This document shows positions 4,577 to 23,601 of a DNA stretch of 23,601 bases, one piece after another; positions within the stretch are counted from its first letter, which is position 1, and every line of letters starts with the position of its first letter. Origin of the DNA: a virus; the IMG/VR virus record IMGVR_UViG_3300037504_001248, positions 1 through 23,601 of that record; one strand, given 5' to 3'. The notes under the pieces are model-generated. The model was not told the origin of the DNA. It worked only from the letters and a program-made list of their open reading frames with translations, and did no database searches. A program made the position numbers and the translations under genes.

Positions 4577-5244
4577 CGCAGCCGCCCCGCCACGTTGTAG
4601 CGCGCGCGTCGCCCTACAGGGCCCACGGCCTGCAGGATGGCCGCCTGGTACGCCTGCTCCAGGGCGTCCGCCTGCGCCCGCAGCACCGCCGAGGGACTGG
4701 ACTTCTTCACCCGCTCATCCCCGACCTGGTATTCGGTGATCTCGCCCGAGCCCGAGGTGATCAGGCTGAGGGCTTGGGTGCGCAGCGCCAACGCCTGTGC
4801 CTTGAGGATCAGGATCGCCACGTCGGCCTCCGTCAGGTAGGGGTAGCTGTCGCTGGCGTCCAGCACGTGGCCCGCCGCGTAGCGATACGAGCGGTCTATC
4901 GTGTAGTTCGGTGTGGGGGTAACTGTGATCGTTCGCCCGTTGACTGTATGACGCTCATTCCAATCCGACGAAAGCGGTACAATACCATTGGACGTGTGCA
5001 AGATTCCTTCGTGGCCCTCGAATACGTCCAGCTTGATCTCGAATAGAAAGTCGTCGGGTAGGGCATAGGTTGCTGTTCCACTCACAATTGAGATCGTCGT
5101 AACACGCGTCATAGGTCTGCGCCGCGAATAGTCGCGTACCGCGTCCTTGACTGCGTTCTCGTACTGCGTCGTCGAGGGTGCCCCATCCCGCGCGGGCACG
5201 TCCGCCTGCAGGCGCGTCACCAGGTCTGTCAGCGCAATGCTCAC
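4573..5244 (-). CDS. Putative head-tail adaptor protein
   Basis: 223 residues using a GTG start (5242-5244), VSIALTDLVTRLQADVP as read without Met substitution. The GTG overlaps the upstream TGA as GTGA, and the ATG further upstream would add 21 residues lying inside the previous gene, so GTG is preferred. 'YENAVKDAVRDYSRRRP' near residue 35 is the helix typical of phage adaptor proteins that bind the portal. It is followed by a beta section with 'YALPDDFLFEIKLDVFEG' and a C-terminal helical pair, 'EADVAILILKAQALALRTQAL' and 'VLRAQADALEQAYQAAI', resembling gp6-like connectors. The role would be the first ring below the portal. Exact family not confirmed. Confidence 0.52.
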   Translation of the reverse strand: MSIALTDLVTRLQADVPARDGAPSTTQYENAVKDAVRDYSRRRPMTRVTTISIVSGTATYALPDDFLFEIKLDVFEGHEGILHTSNGIVPLSSDWNERHTVNGRTITVTPTPNYTIDRSYRYAAGHVLDASDSYPYLTEADVAILILKAQALALRTQALSLITSGSGEITEYQVGDERVKKSSPSAVLRAQADALEQAYQAAILQAVGPVGRRARYNVAGRLR

Positions 5245-5708
5245 CGGAAGAACCCCTGCACTTTGATGGAGATTGTATCCGTACCAGCAATATTGGCGCC
5301 AACACACTTCACGCGAACACGGTCACACCAATGAACACTACGTACCTGATTTGCTGCCAGGGACCCGTCGGTGGCGGCCCGATCCGCGACGCTCGCGCCA
5401 CGCGCATTGACGAACACCACATAACTGCCGTTGGCCATCGCCCCACTGGTCACTTGTGTGAAGTGCACTAGATCGTCCCAGGTCGTCCCCTCGTCTGGAG
5501 AGTATTGCACGTAGATATCCAATGTCGTCGATGCGTCGAACGTCTTCCCACTAATCGTCAATATGAGTGTGAGGAGCGTGAACACCTCTACGCCAGTCAG
5601 GTGCGCTCCGATCACCGGCGTGTCGTCGTCTATCGTCATCTCCGCCAGCAACGTGGCCAGATACCCCGGCGCCACGACCGACTTCCGATCAGGTACCCAG
5701 CTCGTCAT
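5241..5708 (-). CDS. Beta-rich putative virion protein, unknown function
   Basis: The product has 155 residues from MTSWVPDRKSVVAPGYL, preceded by GGAGGTGCAGG. The chosen start lies 20 bp inside the end of the upstream gene. The predicted strands 'EVFTLLTLILTISGKTF', 'TLDIYVQYSPDEGTTWDDLVHF', 'GSYVVFVNARG', 'DRVRVKCVGANI' and 'DTISIKVQGFF' suggest a beta-sandwich. 'YVQYSPDEGTTWDDL' resembles 'FSNDQSSWTDA' in the signal-peptide protein two genes upstream, so the two may share a fold, perhaps a capsid decoration or Ig-like domain. I do not recognise the family. The start and stop both overlap neighbours, so it belongs to the head operon. Confidence 0.55.
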   Translation of the reverse strand: MTSWVPDRKSVVAPGYLATLLAEMTIDDDTPVIGAHLTGVEVFTLLTLILTISGKTFDASTTLDIYVQYSPDEGTTWDDLVHFTQVTSGAMANGSYVVFVNARGASVADRAATDGSLAANQVRSVHWCDRVRVKCVGANIAGTDTISIKVQGFFR

Positions 5709-6087
5709 CCTGCACCTCCAGGGCCTGCACGATTTCTGCCGCCGACGCGTCCCCGATCCCCTTGATAGTGGTGAGCAAATCAACCGTCGCGCGGTCGGGG
5801 GTGAGCACCTGTCCCTCGGCGATCAACGCCCGGAGTTGCTCCACCGTGTGGACGTCGGCCTCGCGCAAGGCATTCTCCGTCCGTGCCCCCAACCCCAGGT
5901 CCGCGATATTCGTCTGCTCAATCTCCAGGTGTTCATCCAGCAACGCCATCCCAACCTCTGCCAGGCAATCGGGATACTGCGCCAGCAGCGCCCGTCCCTG
6001 AGGTGCGCCCACCACGAAGCGCTCCCCCGGCAACCGGCGCCGGTGCGCTATCGTGCGAGGTTCGTCACTCGTCAGTTCTAAGATCAT
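5689..6087 (-). CDS. Small protein with RNA polymerase alpha-CTD-like helix-hairpin-helix domain
   Basis: 132 residues from MILELTSDEPRT, with AGGAG and an 8-base gap before the ATG. Residues 1-55 are of unknown type. Residues 61-123 read 'IADLGLGARTENALREADV', then 'HTVEQLRALI', and 'LLTTIKGIGDASAAEIVQAL'. This closely follows the C-terminal domain of the RNA polymerase alpha subunit ('i.dLeLs.Rs.N.Lk.a.I.tv.eL ... LL...n.G.kSl.EI...L'). The residues matching the DNA-contacting Arg265, Asn268, Gly296 and Ser299 of E. coli alpha are present (R69, N72, G112, S115), while the Lys298 position is Ala. A ~10-residue insertion lies between the helices. Such a domain could bind AT-rich promoter DNA or sigma/activators. 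A general HhH role in a structural protein is the alternative. Confidence 0.7.
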   Translation of the reverse strand: MILELTSDEPRTIAHRRRLPGERFVVGAPQGRALLAQYPDCLAEVGMALLDEHLEIEQTNIADLGLGARTENALREADVHTVEQLRALIAEGQVLTPDRATVDLLTTIKGIGDASAAEIVQALEVQDDELGT

Positions 6088-6148
6088 CAGCCTCTCCTTA
6101 TTCCAGGCGGCGGGGGGCAGCCCCACGCCTGCCCCCCGCATGGCTCGC

Positions 6149-6739
6149 TCAGTCGTTGCGGAACAGCACCTTGATGGTCGGCGTCACCGTCGCGTCGTGC
6201 TCGATCTTGAAGCGCAGGTACTTGCCCGCCAGCGGCACCCGCAGGTAGTCCGTGGCGTCCGCGCTGAGTACCACACGGTAAGTTGCCTCCGTTACCGCCG
6301 TACTCATCGACGTCGTAGTCGTCGCCGTAGTCGTGCCCGACGTCGTGACGACCGACGTCGTCGAGGCCAGCGTGTCCGCAGCGTAGCTGTACGTGGCGTC
6401 GGTCCAGCTGGACTGGTCGTTGCTGAACTGCGGCGTCACCGTGATGGTGGCCGAGGGTGTGATATCCGCTGTCACAAACACGTCGGCACTATGATAGAGC
6501 CACACCAGGCTAATGTCTGTGCCGTAGACCGTGTTAGGCGCGTCGGTGTACGTTACCGTCGTTCCCGCCACGACCTCGGCGTTCCAGAATGTATCCGGGC
6601 CCCTCAGGCCCACCACTGTGCCGGGCATAGGCTCGCCCGGATCGCTCGCCGCCACACCACCCGTCACCAACAGCACCAGTGCCGCCACCATCAACATCAG
6701 CAGGTTCTCTTTGTGGTTCAACCGTCGCTTGCTCTTCAT
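6149..6739 (-). CDS. Secreted or membrane-tethered beta protein with Sec signal peptide, in the head operon
   Basis: 196 residues, with AAGGAG before the ATG. The N-terminus is a clear signal peptide or anchor: basic MKSKRRLNHKE, a hydrophobic core 'LLMLMVAALVLLVTGGV', and a possible cleavage site after 'VAA'. The mature part is rich in Thr, Ser and Val. It includes 'ITVTPQFSNDQSSWTDATYSY' and a low-complexity run of Thr/Ser around residues 125-145, and ends 'LRFKIEHDATVTPTIKVLF'. It looks like a beta-sandwich or galactose-binding-like fold. Virion proteins rarely carry Sec signals, so export in the lysogen or the infected cell (superinfection exclusion, surface change) is possible. An alternative is a virion protein with an inner-membrane-like tail that is not cleaved. 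Function unknown. Confidence 0.6.
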   Translation of the reverse strand: MKSKRRLNHKENLLMLMVAALVLLVTGGVAASDPGEPMPGTVVGLRGPDTFWNAEVVAGTTVTYTDAPNTVYGTDISLVWLYHSADVFVTADITPSATITVTPQFSNDQSSWTDATYSYAADTLASTTSVVTTSGTTTATTTTSMSTAVTEATYRVVLSADATDYLRVPLAGKYLRFKIEHDATVTPTIKVLFRND

Positions 6740-6836: not shown

Positions 6837-9497
6837 TCAACTGATCTTCACCAGTGCACCCTTCTCCGCCACCGGCGCGTCGGTCACATTGTACTCCTCG
6901 GCGTAGTATTGATCCGCCGCCTTCAACTTGGTCGTTCCACCCGAAACGTCGTAGGTGGGGTACGGCCCCTTGATGACGAGCGGTCGGTACACCCAATGCA
7001 TCGCCAGCTCGCGGTTGGCGACCAGCAGGTAGGAATCGGAGAACTCGGAGCTCGCGTATACCGGATAGCCCTTCACCCGCCCCACGAAGCCATTGCTCCG
7101 TAGGATCGCGTCCGGGAACCCATCCCGTTTGAAGCCGTCCCAGTTGCTGATCAAGTCTGCGTTGGTCCGGCTGGTTACGACAGCCGTGGGTTCGTAGTAG
7201 CGATTCCACACCTTTACCCCGGCCTGCCCGATGTACTTCACCAGCAGGTCCAAGCTATCGGTCGCCGACGTCCATGTCCCGGCGATGTTGTTGGCGACGC
7301 TCAGCGCCGCACTGAGCGCCATATAGAGCACACCTTGGTCGATAAGTCGCCGGATGCGTTCTACCAGGCTCGCCAGCGTGCGCTGGGTTGCATCCCAGTT
7401 CAACTGGCTGCGGCTGAATTGCACCGCCTCGTCGCTGATCTGCTGCGCCAGTCGGTCGGCGGCGGCGGTCATCGTCTTGTATGTCAGATTGATCTCACCG
7501 CGCTCAATCGCCGCCATCTCGCCCTTGCGGATTGCGGTGTAGGAGTAGTCCACGTCCAGGCTCGCACCGTCGCTGATGTCGCCGGCGCTTAACGCCTTCA
7601 ACTGCCCGCCAGCGTAATCCACCACGTAGTCCGTGCCTTCCACGTAGGTTGTCCCACCCCCATCGGATGTGACGACGACGGTACCCGGCGTGACTCGCTT
7701 GTAGTCCAGCGATACCCACGCATCCAGATCCGCTGTGACGTCCTCATCGCTGACGGAGCCGGAGTAACCGGTGTCACCGCTGAACGCCTCGTAGTACATA
7801 CGGAACGGCGAGCGATCCGTCACGCCGAACGTAAACACGTCAGCGGCGATCAGCATCGGGATTGCTTCCGCCACGACGGCCCGGCTGACGCTGTAGGGGA
7901 GGTTCAGGTCGGTCGTGATCTCTGCCTCCTCAAACAACGCGGATTCACGCGCCAACTGCGCACTGTACATCACGTCGTAGTGCTCCAGGTAGCGTGCCGC
8001 GAAGATTTGCGCCCGCGTCACTGGCTGCTGATGATCCCAACGTTTGCCGGTGTGCCGATCCATCGACTCTTGAATTGCCCAACCCGCCCGGGCGTGTGCC
8101 GGGATACCTAGCTCGCTCTCAATGACGGGCCCCTGGACGTGCACACCGAAGCCTCGCTGCTTCAGCGTGAGTTCCGCCTGTAGCGCGTCATACTCGCGCC
8201 GTTTCGCGCTGATAACCCGCTTTGCCTCATCGATGGTCTGAGGCTCGGCGCCCTGAATGGCTTCCACGAACTGCGATTTCATAAAGTCGGCATATGGAAG
8301 GTCCTCGACCTGGCTCTCGATGTACGCCTGCACCTTGCGCTGACGCGCCTCATCGCGCAGCCGTTTCAGCTCCTCGGCCTGCGTGCGCATCGCCTCGGTG
8401 ATGTCGGCGGTTTCGTTGAGCCCCAGAAGCTCGCGGAGCTCCTGGTCGTGCTCGACCAGCAACCGCTCACGCTCGGCGTCCTCCGCCGCGCGCTGCGCCA
8501 GCGCCTGTTCCAATTCCTCGCGCTTGCGCGCGTCGTGCTCCTCCTCAATCTGGCGCACCAAATGAGGGTATTTCTCGCGTAGCTCTTCCAGCTTCATCTC
8601 CTCTGCTCCTTCCCCGCCTGCGGCGGGCTCTTGTCTCGACTCGAAAAACGTGACCCCCGCCTCGGGGTCACTCTGCTGATTGGGCGCGGTGAGATCGTAC
8701 CCGGTGATCGTCACCCACAGTACCTCTTCCACCTTGTGCCCATCCTCTTCCACGATCCGCGACTCGCCATAAGCGCGTTGACTGATCCCCGGCATGACGC
8801 CGCCCTTCATCTGGGCGCGGATGTCCCGCCCGGCACCGGTCCCCAGCAACAACCCTTCCAGCAGCACATGCGTCCCATCGAACTGCACGCCGGTCCAGTT
8901 GATGACGGTTTCCAGCGTCCTGGGCCCCCGATGTCCCTTGTCAGACGGATGATCCGGCTCTCCGGTCAACGTCAACGATTCCTTGAGTCGCCCCTGTCCG
9001 GCGCTCTCGTGCAGATGGGTCTGAACCTCCTCGACCGCTGCACGCAGTATGCCGGGTGCATAACGCCGCCCGTTGGCGTTCACCACCCCGGCGGTGATCC
9101 CGATGCCCCGAATGGGCCAGGGCCCCTCCGGGTCCGCCTCGGCCTCGTCGAGCTCAACGTATCCGGCAGTCTCCACGAACCGCTGGCGGCCCGCGCTTTC
9201 TGAGACGTCCGGCGCCGAACTGGGCACGTAGGCCAGCTCCACCACCTCCCAGTCCTCCTGGGCCGCGAAGATGTAGCGTTCCCCCTCGCTGGCGTAGGGG
9301 ACGTAGTAGAACTCATCCGGCGCCAGGTCCTCGGCGGTCACAATCACGTAGTCCGCGAAGATCTCGTGGATCCACGGGTACCACTCCTCTTGCGCGGGAA
9401 ATTGTGCTCTGAAGTCCCGCCGGATCTGGGCCATCTGGTAGTCCAGTGACCCCTTGACCTCGTTCAGCGGCTGCCCGCGCGCTAGCTTTCTCTTCAT
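6837..9497 (-). CDS. Fused prohead protease - scaffold - major capsid protein
   Basis: 886 residues, with AGGAGG before the ATG at 9497. Residues ~128-275 are a T4 gp21-like (S80/U9-type) capsid maturation protease. It has 'GIGITAGVVNANGRRYAPG', the catalytic His in 'GEPDHP' (H183), the Ser in 'GISQRA' (S239) and a later Asp in 'GYDLT'. Residues ~300-445 are charged coiled coil, the expected scaffold/delta domain. Residues ~450-886 are an HK97-fold major capsid protein, with 'YSVSRAVVAEAIPMLIAADVF', an inserted beta domain around residues 600-655 containing 'YVEGTDYVVDYAGGQL', and the C-terminal 'YLLVANRELAMHWVYRPL' region. The protease, scaffold and capsid functions are normally separate genes. 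An in-frame ATG at codon 301 has its own strong ribosome site, so two products are likely. The C-terminus ends 'GALVKIS'. Confidence 0.85.
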   Translation of the reverse strand: MKRKLARGQPLNEVKGSLDYQMAQIRRDFRAQFPAQEEWYPWIHEIFADYVIVTAEDLAPDEFYYVPYASEGERYIFAAQEDWEVVELAYVPSSAPDVSESAGRQRFVETAGYVELDEAEADPEGPWPIRGIGITAGVVNANGRRYAPGILRAAVEEVQTHLHESAGQGRLKESLTLTGEPDHPSDKGHRGPRTLETVINWTGVQFDGTHVLLEGLLLGTGAGRDIRAQMKGGVMPGISQRAYGESRIVEEDGHKVEEVLWVTITGYDLTAPNQQSDPEAGVTFFESRQEPAAGGEGAEEMKLEELREKYPHLVRQIEEEHDARKREELEQALAQRAAEDAERERLLVEHDQELRELLGLNETADITEAMRTQAEELKRLRDEARQRKVQAYIESQVEDLPYADFMKSQFVEAIQGAEPQTIDEAKRVISAKRREYDALQAELTLKQRGFGVHVQGPVIESELGIPAHARAGWAIQESMDRHTGKRWDHQQPVTRAQIFAARYLEHYDVMYSAQLARESALFEEAEITTDLNLPYSVSRAVVAEAIPMLIAADVFTFGVTDRSPFRMYYEAFSGDTGYSGSVSDEDVTADLDAWVSLDYKRVTPGTVVVTSDGGGTTYVEGTDYVVDYAGGQLKALSAGDISDGASLDVDYSYTAIRKGEMAAIERGEINLTYKTMTAAADRLAQQISDEAVQFSRSQLNWDATQRTLASLVERIRRLIDQGVLYMALSAALSVANNIAGTWTSATDSLDLLVKYIGQAGVKVWNRYYEPTAVVTSRTNADLISNWDGFKRDGFPDAILRSNGFVGRVKGYPVYASSEFSDSYLLVANRELAMHWVYRPLVIKGPYPTYDVSGGTTKLKAADQYYAEEYNVTDAPVAEKGALVKIS
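8595..8611 (-). promoter_or_regulatory. Internal ribosome binding site and start for scaffold-capsid product
   Basis: Inside the protease-capsid fusion, AAGGAG (8606-8611) stands 8 bases before an in-frame ATG (8595-8597, codon 301), which begins MKLEELREKY at the very junction of protease and coiled coil. A product from here would have 586 residues: scaffold plus capsid protein without protease. This would supply capsid subunits in excess of protease, like other nested head genes (for example lambda C/Nu3). Inference from spacing and position; no expression data. Confidence 0.6.
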
Positions 9498-11745: not shown

Positions 11746-12087
11746 TCAGAAATCCAGCAGCGCCGCCAGCCGAAACAGCTCGCTCTCCTGCTTCAGCCCC
11801 TTGAACACCTGTTCTACGTCCCCGCTGGCCCACGCCGCCCGCCGTGCCTCCCGCAGCTCCGCCAGCACCCGCGCCTTGTGCTCGGTCGGCTGGATTCGCA
11901 CCTCGGTCGTCCAAACCTGGCGCAGGAACGCCAGGTCTTCGCAGATGGTCTCCAGGTCGTAGGCCCGCCCATCCTCCCCCACGACCCCGCTCTGGCGCAG
12001 CGCCGTCTGGATCTCCAACGGCGTCAGGCCTCGCAGGTGCAGCGATGCCACCCGCAGCCGCCGCACGTCCGCCCGCGCGTCGCTCAT
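11746..12087 (-). CDS. Small helix-turn-helix protein of the packaging region
   Basis: 113 residues from MSDARADVRRLRVASLHLRG. The ATG overlaps the upstream dehydrogenase TGA as ATGA, which decides the start. Residues ~8-40 ('RLRVASLHLRGLTPLEIQTAL') look like a homeodomain-type helix-turn-helix ('r..vA.l.l.GlTp.eIa..L') and 'DLETICEDLAFLRQVW' resembles the recognition part. The C-terminal half is helical: 'EHKARVLAELREARRAAWASGDVEQVFKGLKQESELFRLAALL'. It could be a second packaging DNA-binding protein or a late regulator. It is not closely like cI/Cro repressors. Name and target not recognised. Confidence 0.6.
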   Translation of the reverse strand: MSDARADVRRLRVASLHLRGLTPLEIQTALRQSGVVGEDGRAYDLETICEDLAFLRQVWTTEVRIQPTEHKARVLAELREARRAAWASGDVEQVFKGLKQESELFRLAALLDF

Positions 12088-13292
12088 CCCACCCCCCACG
12101 TCAGCACCAGCTCCGGGCGGGGGTCGTCCTCACCCAGGAGTTCCGGCTTGGCGAGGAACATACACTCGCACCAGTAGCCCGCCGCCATCAGGCTCTGCAC
12201 CATCCGCACCCCATAGCGGCCCGCCGCCCCCGGCGGCACGTCCGGATCGTAGATCTGCACCTCGCGCCCGGCCTCCAACAGCCGCTCCACCACTAGCACC
12301 GCCGGGCTGCTGCGCAGGTCGGCGGTGCCCCGCTTGAAGCTCAGTCCCACCATCACCACGCGCTGCGCGCCGGTCCTCAGCACCGCGTCGACGGCCCGCC
12401 GCACGCGGTCCGCGTTGCTGCGCGGGGCCGCCGCCAACACCGGCGTCCGCACCGTCGTCATCCGCAGCAGCGCGGCCAGGTCCTTGGGCAAACAGGATCC
12501 ACCGTAAGGCTCCCCGGGACGCAGGTAGGCGGCAGAAAGGTTCAGCGCGGTGTCCTGGGTGAAGATCTCCATCACGCCGCCCCCCGAGATACCCAGCGCC
12601 GCCGCGATGTCGCCCACCTCGTTGGCAAACGCCACCTTCAGCGCGTGCCAGGCGTTGGACACGTACTTCACCAGCAGCGCCGTCTTGCAATCGGTCGTCA
12701 CGGTGGGGGCATCGAGCTGCTGATACAGCCCCATCAGGTAGCCCCCGGCCCGCGCGTCGTGGGCCCCAATCAGTGTGAAGGACGGCTGCTGCACGTCGGC
12801 CACCGCCGTCCCCTCGCGCAGGAACTCCGGGTTCACGCAGAAGCCCAACTCCTCCCCCACCGGCCGCCCCGCCACCGCTTCCAGCACGGCGATCAAGTCC
12901 GGGAGCGCCACCGGGGGCACCGTGCTGCGCAGGGCCACCACGTGATACGTCCCAGACCCCCGCAGGCCTGCCCCGATCTGCTCCAGCACCCGTGTCACCG
13001 CGCCCAGGTTCACGTCGCCCGTCGCTGTGGCCGGGGTGCCCACGCACACCAGCGATATCCTGGCGGCACGCAATGCGCGCGCCGGGTCGCCGGTGGCCAC
13101 CAGCCGCTCCGCCGCGCGGCCGGCCGCGATCAAGTCGTCCAGCTCCGGCTCGGGGAATGCCGCGTGCCCGGCGTTGAACCGGGCCACCTTCTCGGCGTTC
13201 ACGTCCACGCCGCACACCGTGTGCCCCAGCTCCGCCAGCACGGCCGCTGTCACCGCCCCCACGTATCCCAGCCCAAACACGGCCACCTTCAT
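12084..13292 (-). CDS. Nucleotide-sugar 6-dehydrogenase (GDP-mannose/UDP-glucose type)
   Basis: 402 residues from MKVAVFGLGYVGAVTA, with GGGAGG nine bases before the ATG. The Rossmann motif is GLGYVG (7-12). Further conserved segments are 'VCVGTP', 'CVNPEFLREGTAV', the Lys-bearing 'VKYVSNAWHALKVAFANE', the catalytic Cys in 'YGGSCLPKDLAAL' (C267) and 'GLSFKRGTADLRSSP'. The enzyme oxidises the C6 hydroxyl of a sugar nucleotide to an acid in two NAD-dependent steps. 'YLRPGEPYGGSCLPKD' with Leu before Pro-Lys-Asp is closer to GDP-mannose dehydrogenase (AlgD-like) than to UDP-glucose dehydrogenase. The full length and intact active site suggest it works. It sits between lysis and packaging genes, an unusual place, and may feed the glycosyltransferases of the phage. 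Confidence 0.88.
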   Translation of the reverse strand: MKVAVFGLGYVGAVTAAVLAELGHTVCGVDVNAEKVARFNAGHAAFPEPELDDLIAAGRAAERLVATGDPARALRAARISLVCVGTPATATGDVNLGAVTRVLEQIGAGLRGSGTYHVVALRSTVPPVALPDLIAVLEAVAGRPVGEELGFCVNPEFLREGTAVADVQQPSFTLIGAHDARAGGYLMGLYQQLDAPTVTTDCKTALLVKYVSNAWHALKVAFANEVGDIAAALGISGGGVMEIFTQDTALNLSAAYLRPGEPYGGSCLPKDLAALLRMTTVRTPVLAAAPRSNADRVRRAVDAVLRTGAQRVVMVGLSFKRGTADLRSSPAVLVVERLLEAGREVQIYDPDVPPGAAGRYGVRMVQSLMAAGYWCECMFLAKPELLGEDDPRPELVLTWGVG

Positions 13293-13320
13293 GTCACAGC
13301 CTCCCAAGACATTGAGGGGA

Positions 13321-15828: not shown

Positions 15829-15911
15829 TTTAGTGGATACTGCTCTCACTCTCTCACAGGTGATCTCAAGTTGTCAAGCACGAGTTTGCTCGTGGGGCAC
15901 ACGAGTTTACC
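15829..15911 (-). promoter_or_regulatory. Early promoter/operator element R1
   Basis: On the minus strand: AAACTCGTG, then 12 bases, AAACTCGTG again (21-bp repeat distance), CTTGACA, 17 bases from TTGACA to AGAGAG, inside GTGAGAGAGTGAGAGCA. The same layout occurs at 18291, 19009 and 20350. It lies just before the ribosome site of the RarA-C gene. Its outer repeat overlaps the TAA of the upstream glycosyltransferase gene. Confidence 0.8.
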
Positions 15912-16644
15912 CAATGGTGGTAAGGTTCTGCCGGCGGGTCACCTGCACCTTGATCATGACCGTCGCTTTGCCCGGCACGATCTTCAGCCACGTGCCCCAC
16001 TTGTGCTTCAGATAGGCCAGTTCCCGCCGGTTGCGCTCTGCACTGCGCATGTGGGCGTTGCCCCCCGTGTTGTCGAAGCGCTGCTCCACGAACGCGAAGC
16101 GCAGATCCGAGCAAATGCAGCGGAAGCGCAGTTGCGCCTGCAAACAAAAGTCGATATCGGCCCGCACTTTCAGCGCGGGGTCGAAGCGCAGCTCCCGCCC
16201 GATGATGCCCATCGCGCCCCCTACCCAGCCGGAGAACGCAAACGGGTCCTGGTTGCGGAACTTGCGCACGTCCCCGCCGTTCTGGTTGAAGCCGAACACT
16301 GGCGTCCCCACCGTCCGCGCCACCTGCTCCGTGTTGGCCAGGATCTGCGCGATGGCGCGCGGATCGCTGATGGGCGCGCTGCGCCGGGGACGGCCCGCCA
16401 GCGCCTTCAGCACGCTGACGTCGTCGTCCACGATGAAGACCGTCTCGTCGGGCACGTGGTCCAGGATCCAGTTCTTGAGCGGCGCGATGCCCCGCACCTC
16501 GGGCGGGTGCGCCAGCAGTTCCGCGTCCAGGCCGGCGTAGTCAGCTACCTCGTCCTGGTGCACCACGACCAGCGCGCCGGGGAACAGCTTCAGCACGTGG
16601 GCGCAGGCCGCCACCCGCTTACGGCTGGGGATCACGACTCGCAT
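15907..16644 (-). CDS. Phage GT-A-like glycosyltransferase (resembles TET-associated glycosyltransferases)
   Basis: 245 residues from MRVVIPSRKRVAAC. I prefer this ATG (16644) because homologous proteins begin with a '..iviPSrgR' strand; an ATG 12 codons upstream is also open. The acidic metal site is 'VFIVDDDVSVL' (D73-D75). Later segments are 'GWVGGAMGIIGRELRFDP', 'VRADIDFCLQAQLRFR', 'DLRFAFVEQRFDNTGGN' and 'AYLKHKWG'. This pattern recalls the glycosyltransferases that accompany TET/JBP oxygenases in phages and glycosylate modified DNA bases. The gene overlaps a ParB-like gene by 26 bp, a pairing typical of phage DNA-modification loci. No TET gene lies in the window, so the substrate (DNA base or other) is open. 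Confidence 0.6.
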   Translation of the reverse strand: MRVVIPSRKRVAACAHVLKLFPGALVVVHQDEVADYAGLDAELLAHPPEVRGIAPLKNWILDHVPDETVFIVDDDVSVLKALAGRPRRSAPISDPRAIAQILANTEQVARTVGTPVFGFNQNGGDVRKFRNQDPFAFSGWVGGAMGIIGRELRFDPALKVRADIDFCLQAQLRFRCICSDLRFAFVEQRFDNTGGNAHMRSAERNRRELAYLKHKWGTWLKIVPGKATVMIKVQVTRRQNLTTIG

Positions 16645-17341
16645 CGTGTTGCCCCCAGCGTTCCAGGAAGCGTTGGCCATCCACCACGCGGCACAGGCCC
16701 ACCTTGCGGTGCCGCGCCCCCTTGCTGGTGGTGAAGGAGAAACCCTCCGGCCGGATCCCCAGCAGGTCCACGGCCTGGGACCAATCCCAGGTGTTGCGGA
16801 AGACCACCATCACGTAGTCGTAGTGCTCGAAGGGCTGCACCGTCATCTCCGGCACGGGGTCGTGGTCGTCGGCCTCCTCCGCCTCGTCCTCCTCCGCCGC
16901 CAGCTCGTTGATGATCGCGTCCAGCTCGTGCTGGTGGAAGAACGCCCCCAAGTCCAGGCCCTGCTCCACCCCGGCGGCCACTTGCTGGGCATCCCAGGCC
17001 AGGTTCAGCTCCTGCGCGCGGTTGTCGGCGAAGGCCAGCTCCCGGGCGGCGGGGTCCTCCGTGTCGTCGAGGTCCAGATCGAGGCGCTGGGTGACCACCA
17101 ACGTGTCGCCGGTGGTGGGGACCACCTGCACGTTGAAGCCGCCCAGCTCGGAGAGCACTTGGTGAGTCTTGTTGCCGCCGATCAGGCGGCCCTTCTTGTC
17201 GACCACCACGCCGCGTCCGACCCCAAAGCGGATCACGCTCTCGCGCAGGGAGAACATGCCGCGGTCGGTCCCCGCGTTGGCGTTCTGCTCATCCTGCCGG
17301 AGATCCTCCAGCCTTTTGATGGACGCTGCGTCGTCGGTCAT
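16619..17341 (-). CDS. ParB-like N-domain protein, DNA-modification type
   Basis: 240 residues, with a G-rich AGGGGGGGT right before the ATG. The N-terminal domain has 'LRQDEQNANAGTDRGMFSLRE', 'RGVVVDKKGRLIGGNKTHQVLSELG' and 'LAFADNRAQELNLAWD'. This is the ParB/sulfiredoxin fold in the form common beside phage DNA methylases, with 'IGGNKT' in place of ParB's 'GERR'. A very acidic linker (residues ~150-175, 'AAEEDEAEEADDHDP') leads to a C-terminal domain 'YDYVMVVFRNTWDWSQAVDLLGI' and 'KVGLCRVVDGQRFLE'. It probably binds or acts on DNA or nucleotides for the partner glycosyltransferase. The promoter at 17436-17464 lies upstream. Confidence 0.75.
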   Translation of the reverse strand: MTDDAASIKRLEDLRQDEQNANAGTDRGMFSLRESVIRFGVGRGVVVDKKGRLIGGNKTHQVLSELGGFNVQVVPTTGDTLVVTQRLDLDLDDTEDPAARELAFADNRAQELNLAWDAQQVAAGVEQGLDLGAFFHQHELDAIINELAAEEDEAEEADDHDPVPEMTVQPFEHYDYVMVVFRNTWDWSQAVDLLGIRPEGFSFTTSKGARHRKVGLCRVVDGQRFLERWGQHDASRDPQP

Positions 17342-22110: not shown

Positions 22111-22191
22111 CATTGTCTCCTTTTCGTGAGGTTAGTGAATGCTAATGATTGGGCGCCGCCCCCCGGAGCTGCTCACTCCGGGGGGCATCCT
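22106..22191. repeat. Leader duplication, copy A (next to integrase)
   Basis: CCCATCATTGTCTCCTT (start codons plus ribosome site, seen on the plus strand) is repeated exactly at 22250. A second block, GCGCCGCC plus CGGAG, CTGCTCAC and CATCCTT, is repeated less exactly. About 85 bp are duplicated with ~144-bp offset. Copy A holds an 11-bp perfect hairpin (22158-22186). Confidence 0.72.
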
Positions 22192-22257
22192 TATGGGCGC
22201 CCCTCGAACACCAGATTCGGCCACCGACGTCCCCCGCTTTGCGGTTTCTCCCATCAT
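22132..22257 (-). CDS. 41-residue leader ORF upstream of integrase
   Basis: The frame starts ATGATG behind the same AAGGAGACA ribosome site as the integrase (an exact 17-bp repeat) and ends in TAA 18 bp before the integrase start. The product begins MMGETAKRGTSVAESG, is rich in Gly, Ser, Arg and Pro, and ends RRPIISIH. The integrase begins MMGTSIVTETAKES, so both start MMG and carry ETAK; the leader may be a decayed duplicate of the gene start. A strong hairpin (22158-22186) lies within it, so ribosome movement could control folding before the integrase. It may be a regulatory leader peptide and not a functional protein. Confidence 0.45.
   Translation of the reverse strand: MMGETAKRGTSVAESGVRGAPIRMPPGVSSSGGRRPIISIH
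22158..22186. promoter_or_regulatory. Perfect 11-bp hairpin in the integrase leader
   Basis: GCCCCCCGGAG and CTCCGGGGGGC pair with a 7-base loop. No T-run follows on the minus strand, so it is not a simple terminator. It could block or delay ribosomes in the leader ORF, or stabilise the RNA. The second leader copy has lost this pairing. Confidence 0.6.
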
Positions 22258-22335
22258 TGTCTCCTTCGAAGTTGGGGCAACACTGACGACTGAGCGCCGC
22301 CCTCCCGGAGCCGCTCACGCCCCAGGATACCCTTT
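22250..22335. repeat. Leader duplication, copy B
   Basis: Starts with the exact 17-bp block shared with copy A and continues with the related GCGCCGCC-CGGAG-CCGCTCAC block to ACCCTT, where the dyad module begins. The middle differs from copy A (GAAGTTGGGGCAAC against TCGTGAGGTTAGTG). Confidence 0.7.
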
Positions 22336-22430
22336 AACAGGCATTTTATCCGCCGGTTAGCGCCGGTTTTCACCCCATCGGGACGGGGTTTCGGTGCCGA
22401 AAACGACTACTAAGCTCTGTTAATAGACAA
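22334..22430. repeat. 97-bp dyad-plus-half-site module, copy 4; candidate phage attachment site
   Basis: The dyad at 22403-22430 has arms ACGACTACTAA and TTAATAGACAA around GCTCTG. The solo half-site TTAACAGGCAT starts at 22334, exactly 80 bp from 22413. A GC-rich inverted repeat (ACCCC ... GGGGT) lies between. The module is upstream of the integrase and next to the change from high-GC phage-like to lower-GC sequence, the expected place for attP or attR. It lies inside the predicted integrase leader RNA. The arms match the family less well than in copy 2. Confidence 0.62.
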
Positions 22431-22448
22431 TGTTCATATTGGAACATT
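22429..22448. promoter_or_regulatory. Operator-like inverted repeat at the integrase transcription start
   Basis: AATGTTC, six bases, GAACATT is a perfect 7-bp inverted repeat. The predicted RNA start of the integrase promoter (~22445) lies within it, so a bound dimer would block transcription. The TGTTC-N6-GAACA form resembles dimeric repressor sites such as LexA-type boxes, but no matching repressor gene is in the window. Confidence 0.68.
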
Positions 22449-22451
22449 CTC

Positions 22452-22480
22452 ATTATACGACGTTTTAGGGCGCGTGTCAA
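22452..22480 (-). promoter_or_regulatory. Consensus sigma-70 promoter for the integrase leader
   Basis: Minus strand: TTGACA (22475-22480), exactly 17 bp, TATAAT (22452-22457). Both hexamers are perfect. The RNA would run through the operator-like repeat, the fourth dyad module, the leader ORF and the integrase. Confidence 0.88.
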
Positions 22481-22485
22481 GAGGG

Positions 22486-22526
22486 AAACCGGGCAAAACC
22501 GGGGCAAATCGGGGCCAAAACCCAAA
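22486..22526. other. Phased A-tracts between divergent promoters
   Basis: Five runs of three or four A (centres near 22487, 22497, 22507, 22518 and 22525) are spaced mostly 10-11 bp in a CCGGGG-like background. A-tracts in phase with the helix bend DNA. The block lies just upstream of the integrase promoter and between it and the plus-strand gene promoter. Confidence 0.55.
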
Positions 22527-22551
22527 CTACCCCAGGGCAGTGAATAATCCG

Positions 22552-22581
22552 TTGTTCAAAGCTCACATTATCTGATAGAAT
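22552..22581 (+). promoter_or_regulatory. Promoter for the GHKL ATPase gene
   Basis: TTGTTC (22552-22557), 18 bp, TAGAAT (22576-22581) with an upstream TG (extended -10). It is divergent from the integrase promoter. Another weak -10-like TATAAT overlaps at 22581-22586. Confidence 0.55.
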
Positions 22582-22656
22582 ATAATAGTTGACCCAACCG
22601 ACCGCCAAAAGCCCCGGAGAGATACCAAATCCCGCAGAGACGAACGAGGTGATTTT

Positions 22657-23601
22657 ATGAGCCCTTTGCCATCTGTAGCTGATTCACTAACCACCGCGAG
22701 TCGAGAAAACGGCAGAGCTGTACAGGTTACACTATCGCATCAGCTAGTTCGACTTCTATCAGAACAACTCTATCAATCCCCTCTTAAAGCAATTGAAGAG
22801 CTCGTTGTTAACGCATACGATGCCGGTGCAACAGTATGCCGCATTTCTGTGCCCGTATCAGCTGACGCACAATGGAAGTTCGTAGCTGTTTACGACGATG
22901 GCCATGGCATGGACTACCAAGGACTTACAGATTTATGGCTGGTTGGGCGCAGCAAGAAACGTGAAGAAGAATACGAACGACGCAGTGAACGCAAACAGAT
23001 CGGGAAATTTGGCATTGGCAAACTGGCCACGTCTACTATTGCCAATCAGTTAACTTATCTATCCAAATCCCATGAAGGCATTTTAGGCGTAACATTTGAT
23101 TTCACTATTTTTAGAGGCACCCCAAATGAACAGGCGGACGAAGATGACCAGGCGTCACAAATCCGACCGATAGAATTACCCGTCTACGAAATTGAGGATC
23201 CTGCTGATTTTATTGAGGAGACAAATCTAAGCACTGTTCTCGATGCATTAGGGATGAATACCACAGACCTGGATACCGAGTCTTGGACATTAGCTATTTT
23301 GGAGAACTTGAAAGACAAAGCTGATGATATTAACTCTGGTCCCCTAAATTGGGTTTTGAGAACAGCCATGCCTTTGAGTTCAGATTTCCGCCTTTTTCTC
23401 AACGGGGAAGAAGTACCGAGCTCGAAACTGGAATATGACAGAGTTGTAGAGTTCGATATTACAGATTTACCATCAAAGCGACTGGAAGGATTATCCGAGG
23501 AAACAAATGAAAATTGGCGCGTTGAGGGAGACCGCATTAAATCCGACTCCTTCCCTAATGGGGTAAAAGGCCAAGTATTTGTTACAGAACGAAGCTTATA
23601 C
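22657..23601 (+). CDS. GHKL (HSP90/MORC-like) ATPase, N-terminal 315 residues, cut by window edge
   Basis: Starts ATG behind GAGGTGA, and the frame is open to the right edge. The Bergerat ATP-binding fold is complete: N-box 'AIEELVVNAYDAGA' (E48, N52, D55), G1 box 'VYDDGHGM' (D81-G84) and G2 box 'IGKFGIGKLA' (G119, G121). 'LTDLWLVGRSKKREEEYERR' is the lid-side 'sW..iG.S.K' segment of HSP90-, MORC- and MutL-like ATPases. After residue ~150 come acidic segments and a beta-rich part like the following S5-type domain. Relatives often occur in restriction and defence islands. Its GC content is visibly lower than that of the phage genes (many AAA, GAA and ATT codons), and it is the only supported plus-strand gene, so it is either host sequence or recently acquired cargo. 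Confidence 0.85.
   Translation, partial: MSPLPSVADSLTTASRENGRAVQVTLSHQLVRLLSEQLYQSPLKAIEELVVNAYDAGATVCRISVPVSADAQWKFVAVYDDGHGMDYQGLTDLWLVGRSKKREEEYERRSERKQIGKFGIGKLATSTIANQLTYLSKSHEGILGVTFDFTIFRGTPNEQADEDDQASQIRPIELPVYEIEDPADFIEETNLSTVLDALGMNTTDLDTESWTLAILENLKDKADDINSGPLNWVLRTAMPLSSDFRLFLNGEEVPSSKLEYDRVVEFDITDLPSKRLEGLSEETNENWRVEGDRIKSDSFPNGVKGQVFVTERSLY

Follow-up and report, generated by a model that had tools for sequence, protein, structure and literature searches.

Small proteins encoded between the capsid and connector genes have been described in several phages. In the streptococcal phage vB_Sags-UPM1, gene 12, which lies between the major capsid and gp6-type connector genes, codes for a HeH/LEM protein (PMC10221047). 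The λ protein gpFI binds the prohead lattice and is proposed to act via non-specific DNA binding (PMC4856287). MCP3 of phage TP901-1, encoded between the major head protein and the connector, is non-essential, and its nonsense mutants plate less efficiently (PMC4493119). The window analyzed here, which is an entire virus record of 23.6 kb, carries a gene in the same kind of position (P0001, Table 1), hereafter the slot gene. Its product, the slot protein, resembles the HeH/LEM protein of vB_Sags-UPM1 in gene position, in small size and in having a small helical domain of a nucleic-acid-binding type, but that domain belongs to the HeH/LEM/SAP kind, whereas the one in the window is a helix-hairpin-helix pair, (HhH)2, like the C-terminal domain of the RNA polymerase (RNAP) alpha subunit (αCTD). 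Like gpFI and MCP3, it is encoded between the genes for the major head protein and the head-tail connector; this likeness is one of gene position. gpFI is also about the same size as the slot protein, and HI1506 (FluMu) is a two-domain phage protein from the same capsid-connector slot. An αCTD-like end on this known kind of slot protein appears to be previously undescribed, as none was found in the open-licence literature searched; nor did we find a publication describing an αCTD-like protein in phage virions.

The slot gene belongs to a minus-strand cluster that begins with the large terminase, the protease-capsid fusion and a decoration-like protein, and continues after the slot gene with a small structural-looking gene, an SU10-type adaptor, two small genes, the portal and a minor head protein. 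An initial annotation of this DNA had placed the gene between connector and capsid genes, which is consistent with the capsid and decoration genes on one side and the adaptor on the other. Its limits also hold, but the strand had been left out: the coding strand is minus, and a plus-strand reading of the same interval is not the gene. Among the related contigs compared (L numbers), L005 and L006 conserve the gene at the same position. The probable start codon of the downstream structural-looking gene (ATG 5708) overlaps the 3′ end of the slot gene. The stability of the RNA hairpin on the other side, between the decoration-like and slot genes, was matched by none of 200 shuffles, and the hairpin is possibly a transcript boundary or attenuator. 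Two inverted repeats (~9008-9061) also lie 5′ of the slot gene in L005.

Table 1. Features of the slot gene and its neighborhood in the window.
Feature	Position	Strand	Basis or remark
Slot-protein gene P0001, stop codon included, 132 aa	5689..6087	minus	Open frame, ATG at 6087, stop ending 5689
Ribosome-binding site AAGGAG, 6 bases 5′ of ATG	6094..6099	minus	Read from sequence
N-terminal alpha/beta module, residues 1-50	5938..6087	minus	AF2 pLDDT 93-97
Linker, residues 51-60	5908..5937	minus	pLDDT <50 at residues 52-64
αCTD-like (HhH)2 domain, residues 61-125	5713..5907	minus	Pfam and VIA-align superposition
R69-T-E-N72, equivalents of R265 and N268	5872..5883	minus	Alignment to E. coli and B. 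subtilis αCTD
Extra segment of ~11-12 residues (~91-102), helix 2-3, absent from αCTD	5782..5817	minus	Alignments
Hairpin I111-G112-D113-A114-S115, equivalents of L295-G296-K297-K298-S299	5743..5757	minus	Alignment
Protease-capsid fusion	6837-9497	minus	Neighbor cluster
Decoration-like protein, 196 aa, hydrophobic N-terminus, upstream of slot gene	6149..6739	minus	Same place in L005, L008, L021, L023
Structural-looking gene, downstream of slot gene	5241..5708	minus	ORF and homologue in L008
SU10-type adaptor	4573 to ~5242	minus	
Strong RNA hairpin just 5′ of slot gene	6111..6139	minus	MFE -37.3 kcal/mol (66-nt stretch), z -3.2

Against the Pfam family RNA_pol_A_CTD (PF03118) the C-terminal domain scores 32.5 bits (E 7.1e-8), above the gathering cut-off of 23.8, and the L005/L006 protein also lies above that cut-off (30.2 bits). 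The HHH_5 model gives 27.0 for the window domain, exactly its cut-off of 27, and 18.5 for the L005/L006 protein. Smith-Waterman scores against the E. coli and B. subtilis αCTDs were above those of 1000 out of 1000 shuffles, so the match is not due to chance, and a PDB search with the family profile ranked RNAP alpha chains first (best E 0.004). RpoA family models cover residues 51-129 only: the alpha N-terminal domain is missing, and residues 1-50 form a different small alpha/beta module. A fold search with the whole protein gave nothing at E <= 0.001 and was dominated by this N-terminal module (N-module), and the C-terminal domain was therefore modelled alone. The resulting model is only moderate (pLDDT 76, pTM 0.63) because its alignment held just two sequences. 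It superposes on the Synechococcus αCTD with Z 9.6 (VIA-align; 1.5 Å over 60 residues, 40% identity) and on the Streptomyces αCTD with Z 9.4 (1.1 Å over 57), followed by the RAD51C N-terminal domain and BAF at Z 8.5. The latter two and HHH_5 share the same (HhH)2 arrangement, with a lower sequence score than αCTD. Judged from the predicted structure, the label αCTD-like is correct, but the margin over other (HhH)2 domains is no more than about 1 Z. The initial annotation had assigned residues 61-123 to αCTD and proposed structure prediction and superposition as one check; the Pfam score, the fold comparison and the PDB ranking all bear the assignment out.

Fold and topology are those of the RNAP αCTD, and the alignments keep the equivalents of R265 (R69), N268 (N72), G296 (G112), S299 (S115) and E302 (E118), with K271 conservatively replaced by R75. 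Changed positions are C269 (A73), K297 (D113), K298 (A114) and E261 (G65). In its remaining differences from RNAP αCTD, the slot protein has no alpha N-terminal domain, is more acidic, is fused to the phage slot module and has an insertion of 11-12 residues between helices 2 and 3. The claim that the DNA-contact residues are retained thus stands for R265, N268, G296 and S299, while K298 and C269 are lost. A generic HhH fold without these contacts, named in the initial annotation as the finding that would speak against αCTD, is not what we see, because R69, N72, G112 and S115 are kept, yet the match is incomplete. G296 and S299 are part of the general HhH hairpin, and therefore the distinctive pair is R69/N72; of these, L005 has R at the 265 equivalent but K at 268. 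We dropped the argument that loss of E261 signals a lack of sigma contact, because the Thermus αCTD also has G at that position. The E. coli αCTD bears its activator-contact (287) determinant on the helix 2-3 loop, and it is this loop that the insertion replaces; the insertion is four residues longer in L005 than in the window. The net charge is -6 for residues 60-125 and -13 for everything after residue 50, as compared with -1, -1, -3 and -4 for the true αCTDs of E. coli, B. subtilis, Thermus and Synechococcus, respectively.

The N-module is a separate, confidently modelled fold that occupies the slot between the capsid/decoration genes and the adaptor in L005, L007, L008, L009, L010, L013, L015, L018, L021 and L023. 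Leave-one-out profiles of this module recovered every member (window E 3e-4, L007 3e-5), and L005, L008, L021 and L023 fell below 1e-12 because closer kin remain in the profile. With entire groups left out, L013/L015 and L009/L010/L018 were still recovered, but the window's N-module was no longer found by a profile lacking the whole window/L005/L008/L021 group. The module has no Pfam match. Its top fold match, a weak one, is YqbF (PDB 2hjq; Z 5.2, 3.0 Å over 49 residues; Foldseek E 0.5, 8% identity), which is tied in Z with the unrelated enzyme AS3MT, and neither YqbF nor its Pfam family was matched by sequence (Pfam hits to E 10; PDB sequence search). In B. subtilis, YqbF is encoded in the capsid region of the skin prophage.

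The C-terminal ends of the slot proteins differ in kind. The αCTD-like end is found in the window and L005/L006 only, and since L005 and L006 are identical there, the domain has one independent relative. L021 and L008, whose capsid proteins are 67-71% identical to that of the window virus, have a slot protein without αCTD. Eight relatives lacking αCTD have basic tails, with a best 14-residue net charge of +4 to +8 (maximum +4 among 69 background C-termini). Basic C-termini are therefore not a rule for the slot, as the αCTD-bearing ones are acidic. In L007 the end of the slot protein is weakly E3-binding-like, with 12.6 bits against a cut-off of 23.7. The N-modules of L005 and L008 are 62% identical and those of the window and L005 only 27%, whereas the C-terminal domains of the window and L005 are 54% identical, and therefore the end has been swapped or lost separately from the N-module. 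In L027, which has an unrelated capsid gene, the slot between decoration and connector genes holds an HHH_5-like protein. L029 encodes, further downstream and beyond a tail-tube-like gene, a protein whose N-terminus is module-like and whose end is HHH_5-like. The two HhH ends score slightly under the HHH_5 cut-off, have no R..N pair and, like the window domain, are in acidic proteins (-8 for L027 and -7 for L029). A second HhH protein of L027 (16911-17324; HHH_5 39.2 bits), with a zinc-ribbon-like N-terminus, is encoded near connector genes. The capsid-to-connector slot, little studied so far, is modular, with a common N-module and interchangeable C-terminal ends that include basic tails, (HhH)2-type and αCTD-like domains and perhaps E3-binding-like ones. 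Owing to this modularity, the idea of a gpFI-type packaging helper can be tested through domain swaps.

Scans of viral contigs with the whole protein or the αCTD part alone found L005/L006 only. The phage collection gave weak matches only: Mithril and Zenteno07 matched in the αCTD part, and the matches in Caulobacter phages are antisense to annotated genes and were taken as chance. The L005 protein had no match in phages, and among plasmids the protein matched just Streptomyces sequences, weakly and over part of its length. In Mycobacterium phage Mithril, gp57 (L004:4749-5195) is a hypothetical protein with an αCTD-like end (HARTHNLLRRSGYHTVEQLR...GIRGLG); its gene lies close to genes of DNA replication, and the protein retains the R..N pair and, at net +3, is basic. 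A search of species genomes with the capsid had a contig of a Clostridiales bin (L009 = L048) as its sole match.

Our assessment, with a probability slightly better than even, is that the slot protein is a two-domain head-assembly accessory protein, a helper of packaging or assembly with a swapped-in αCTD-like (HhH)2 end. The N-module would most likely dock on the phage head or vertex, and the αCTD-like end, carried on the flexible linker, would most likely touch double-stranded DNA or DNA-bound terminase, with the contact made via the helix end that carries R69, N72 and R75 and via the hairpin G112-S115. Such contact would aid DNA packaging or head completion, as proposed for λ gpFI from the same gene position, and the slot protein would be present in procapsids or virions. 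The two-domain build with its αCTD-like fold, the conservation of the slot, the domain swap, the basic tails of the relatives, the HhH occupant of the L027 slot and the literature on slot proteins all point this way. Against it stand the acidity of the αCTD-like end, the opposite of the relatives' basic tails; the loss of K298, the D in place of K297 and, in L005, the K in place of N268; the N-module, for which Pfam gave nothing and the fold search a weak match at best; and the single independent αCTD-bearing relative, together with the loss of the window's N-module from a profile without its group. The N-module has no established sequence link to gpFI, MCP3 or YqbF, and therefore a function shared with gpFI and MCP3 is best read as an analogy of position and architecture.

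Because the αCTD-like end is acidic, it may instead be a protein-binding adaptor, an (HhH)2 domain that no longer binds DNA and engages an assembly partner instead, for example terminase, portal or capsid. The HhH-tailed proteins of L027 and L029 share the acidity, and (HhH)2 folds that bind proteins too, among them BAF and the N-terminal domain of RAD51, come close behind αCTD in the fold ranking. We nevertheless consider this unlikely, given that R69, N72, R75, G112 and S115 are kept and that the basic tails of the relatives are more readily interpreted as nucleic-acid binding. A minor structural protein of the decoration or neck type, with no packaging role and a C-terminal domain that merely contacts DNA or neighbors in the head interior, would fit the gene position, the modular variation and the non-essential nature of TP901-1 MCP3. 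Selection on the αCTD part is, however, purifying (dN 0.33, pN 0.27, with synonymous change and pS saturated), compared with dN 0.90 in the N-module, and this tighter constraint suggests a specific task; we consider a purely structural role improbable.

The initial annotation had gone further and suggested that a free αCTD could recruit or divert polymerase; the domain assignment and the virion-gene context stand, but for recruitment or diversion the evidence is the resemblance itself. Such a mimic would redirect host transcription by acting on UP elements, activators or sigma, and might travel in the virion and enter together with the DNA. αCTD is indeed the best match by both sequence and structure, the two DNA contacts that are most distinctive (R265 and N268) are retained, and the unrelated Mithril gp57, encoded outside the structural genes, has an αCTD-like end with the same R..N spacing. 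However, the slot gene lies in a structural cluster away from regulators, and its N-module is a fixture of the capsid-connector slot common to proteins without αCTD, among them those of the close relatives L021 and L008. The insertion in the helix 2-3 loop, the loss of K298 and C269 and the change of N268 in L005 also argue against mimicry, as does, weakly in view of the Thermus αCTD, the loss of E261. Furthermore, slot proteins of other phages carry other small domains of nucleic-acid-binding type and are themselves tied to packaging or infectivity and not to transcription. From the sequence comparisons, polymerase recruitment is thus possible but improbable, with the swap pattern and gene position speaking against it, and the more specific scenario of a virion-associated head protein that enters with the genome and uses its αCTD-type domain to place host polymerase at promoters, or bar it from them, at the start of infection is very improbable. 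αCTD-like domains in phages should not be read as transcription factors by default.

Further features lie elsewhere in the window and its relatives. The protease-capsid fusion combines a prohead protease and the major capsid protein in one frame of 886 aa, which includes a tail-tube-like segment (residues 578-675) and has full-length matches in Virus Rctr41k as well as in numerous related contigs. In L019 (2-2491) a single open frame takes in both the end of the capsid frame and, by profile (18.8 bits), the slot N-module, which could reflect either a genuine fusion or a frameshifted fragment. The window further has a UDP-glucose/GDP-mannose dehydrogenase gene (12084-13307), with similar ones in L023, L024 and L027, and a match to TET-associated glycosyltransferase (TAGT; 15907-16680), hinting at DNA base modification. 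Beyond the integrase gene, at 22139-23601, GC falls from ~0.65 to 0.46 and open frames are few, and this segment is possibly flanking host DNA.
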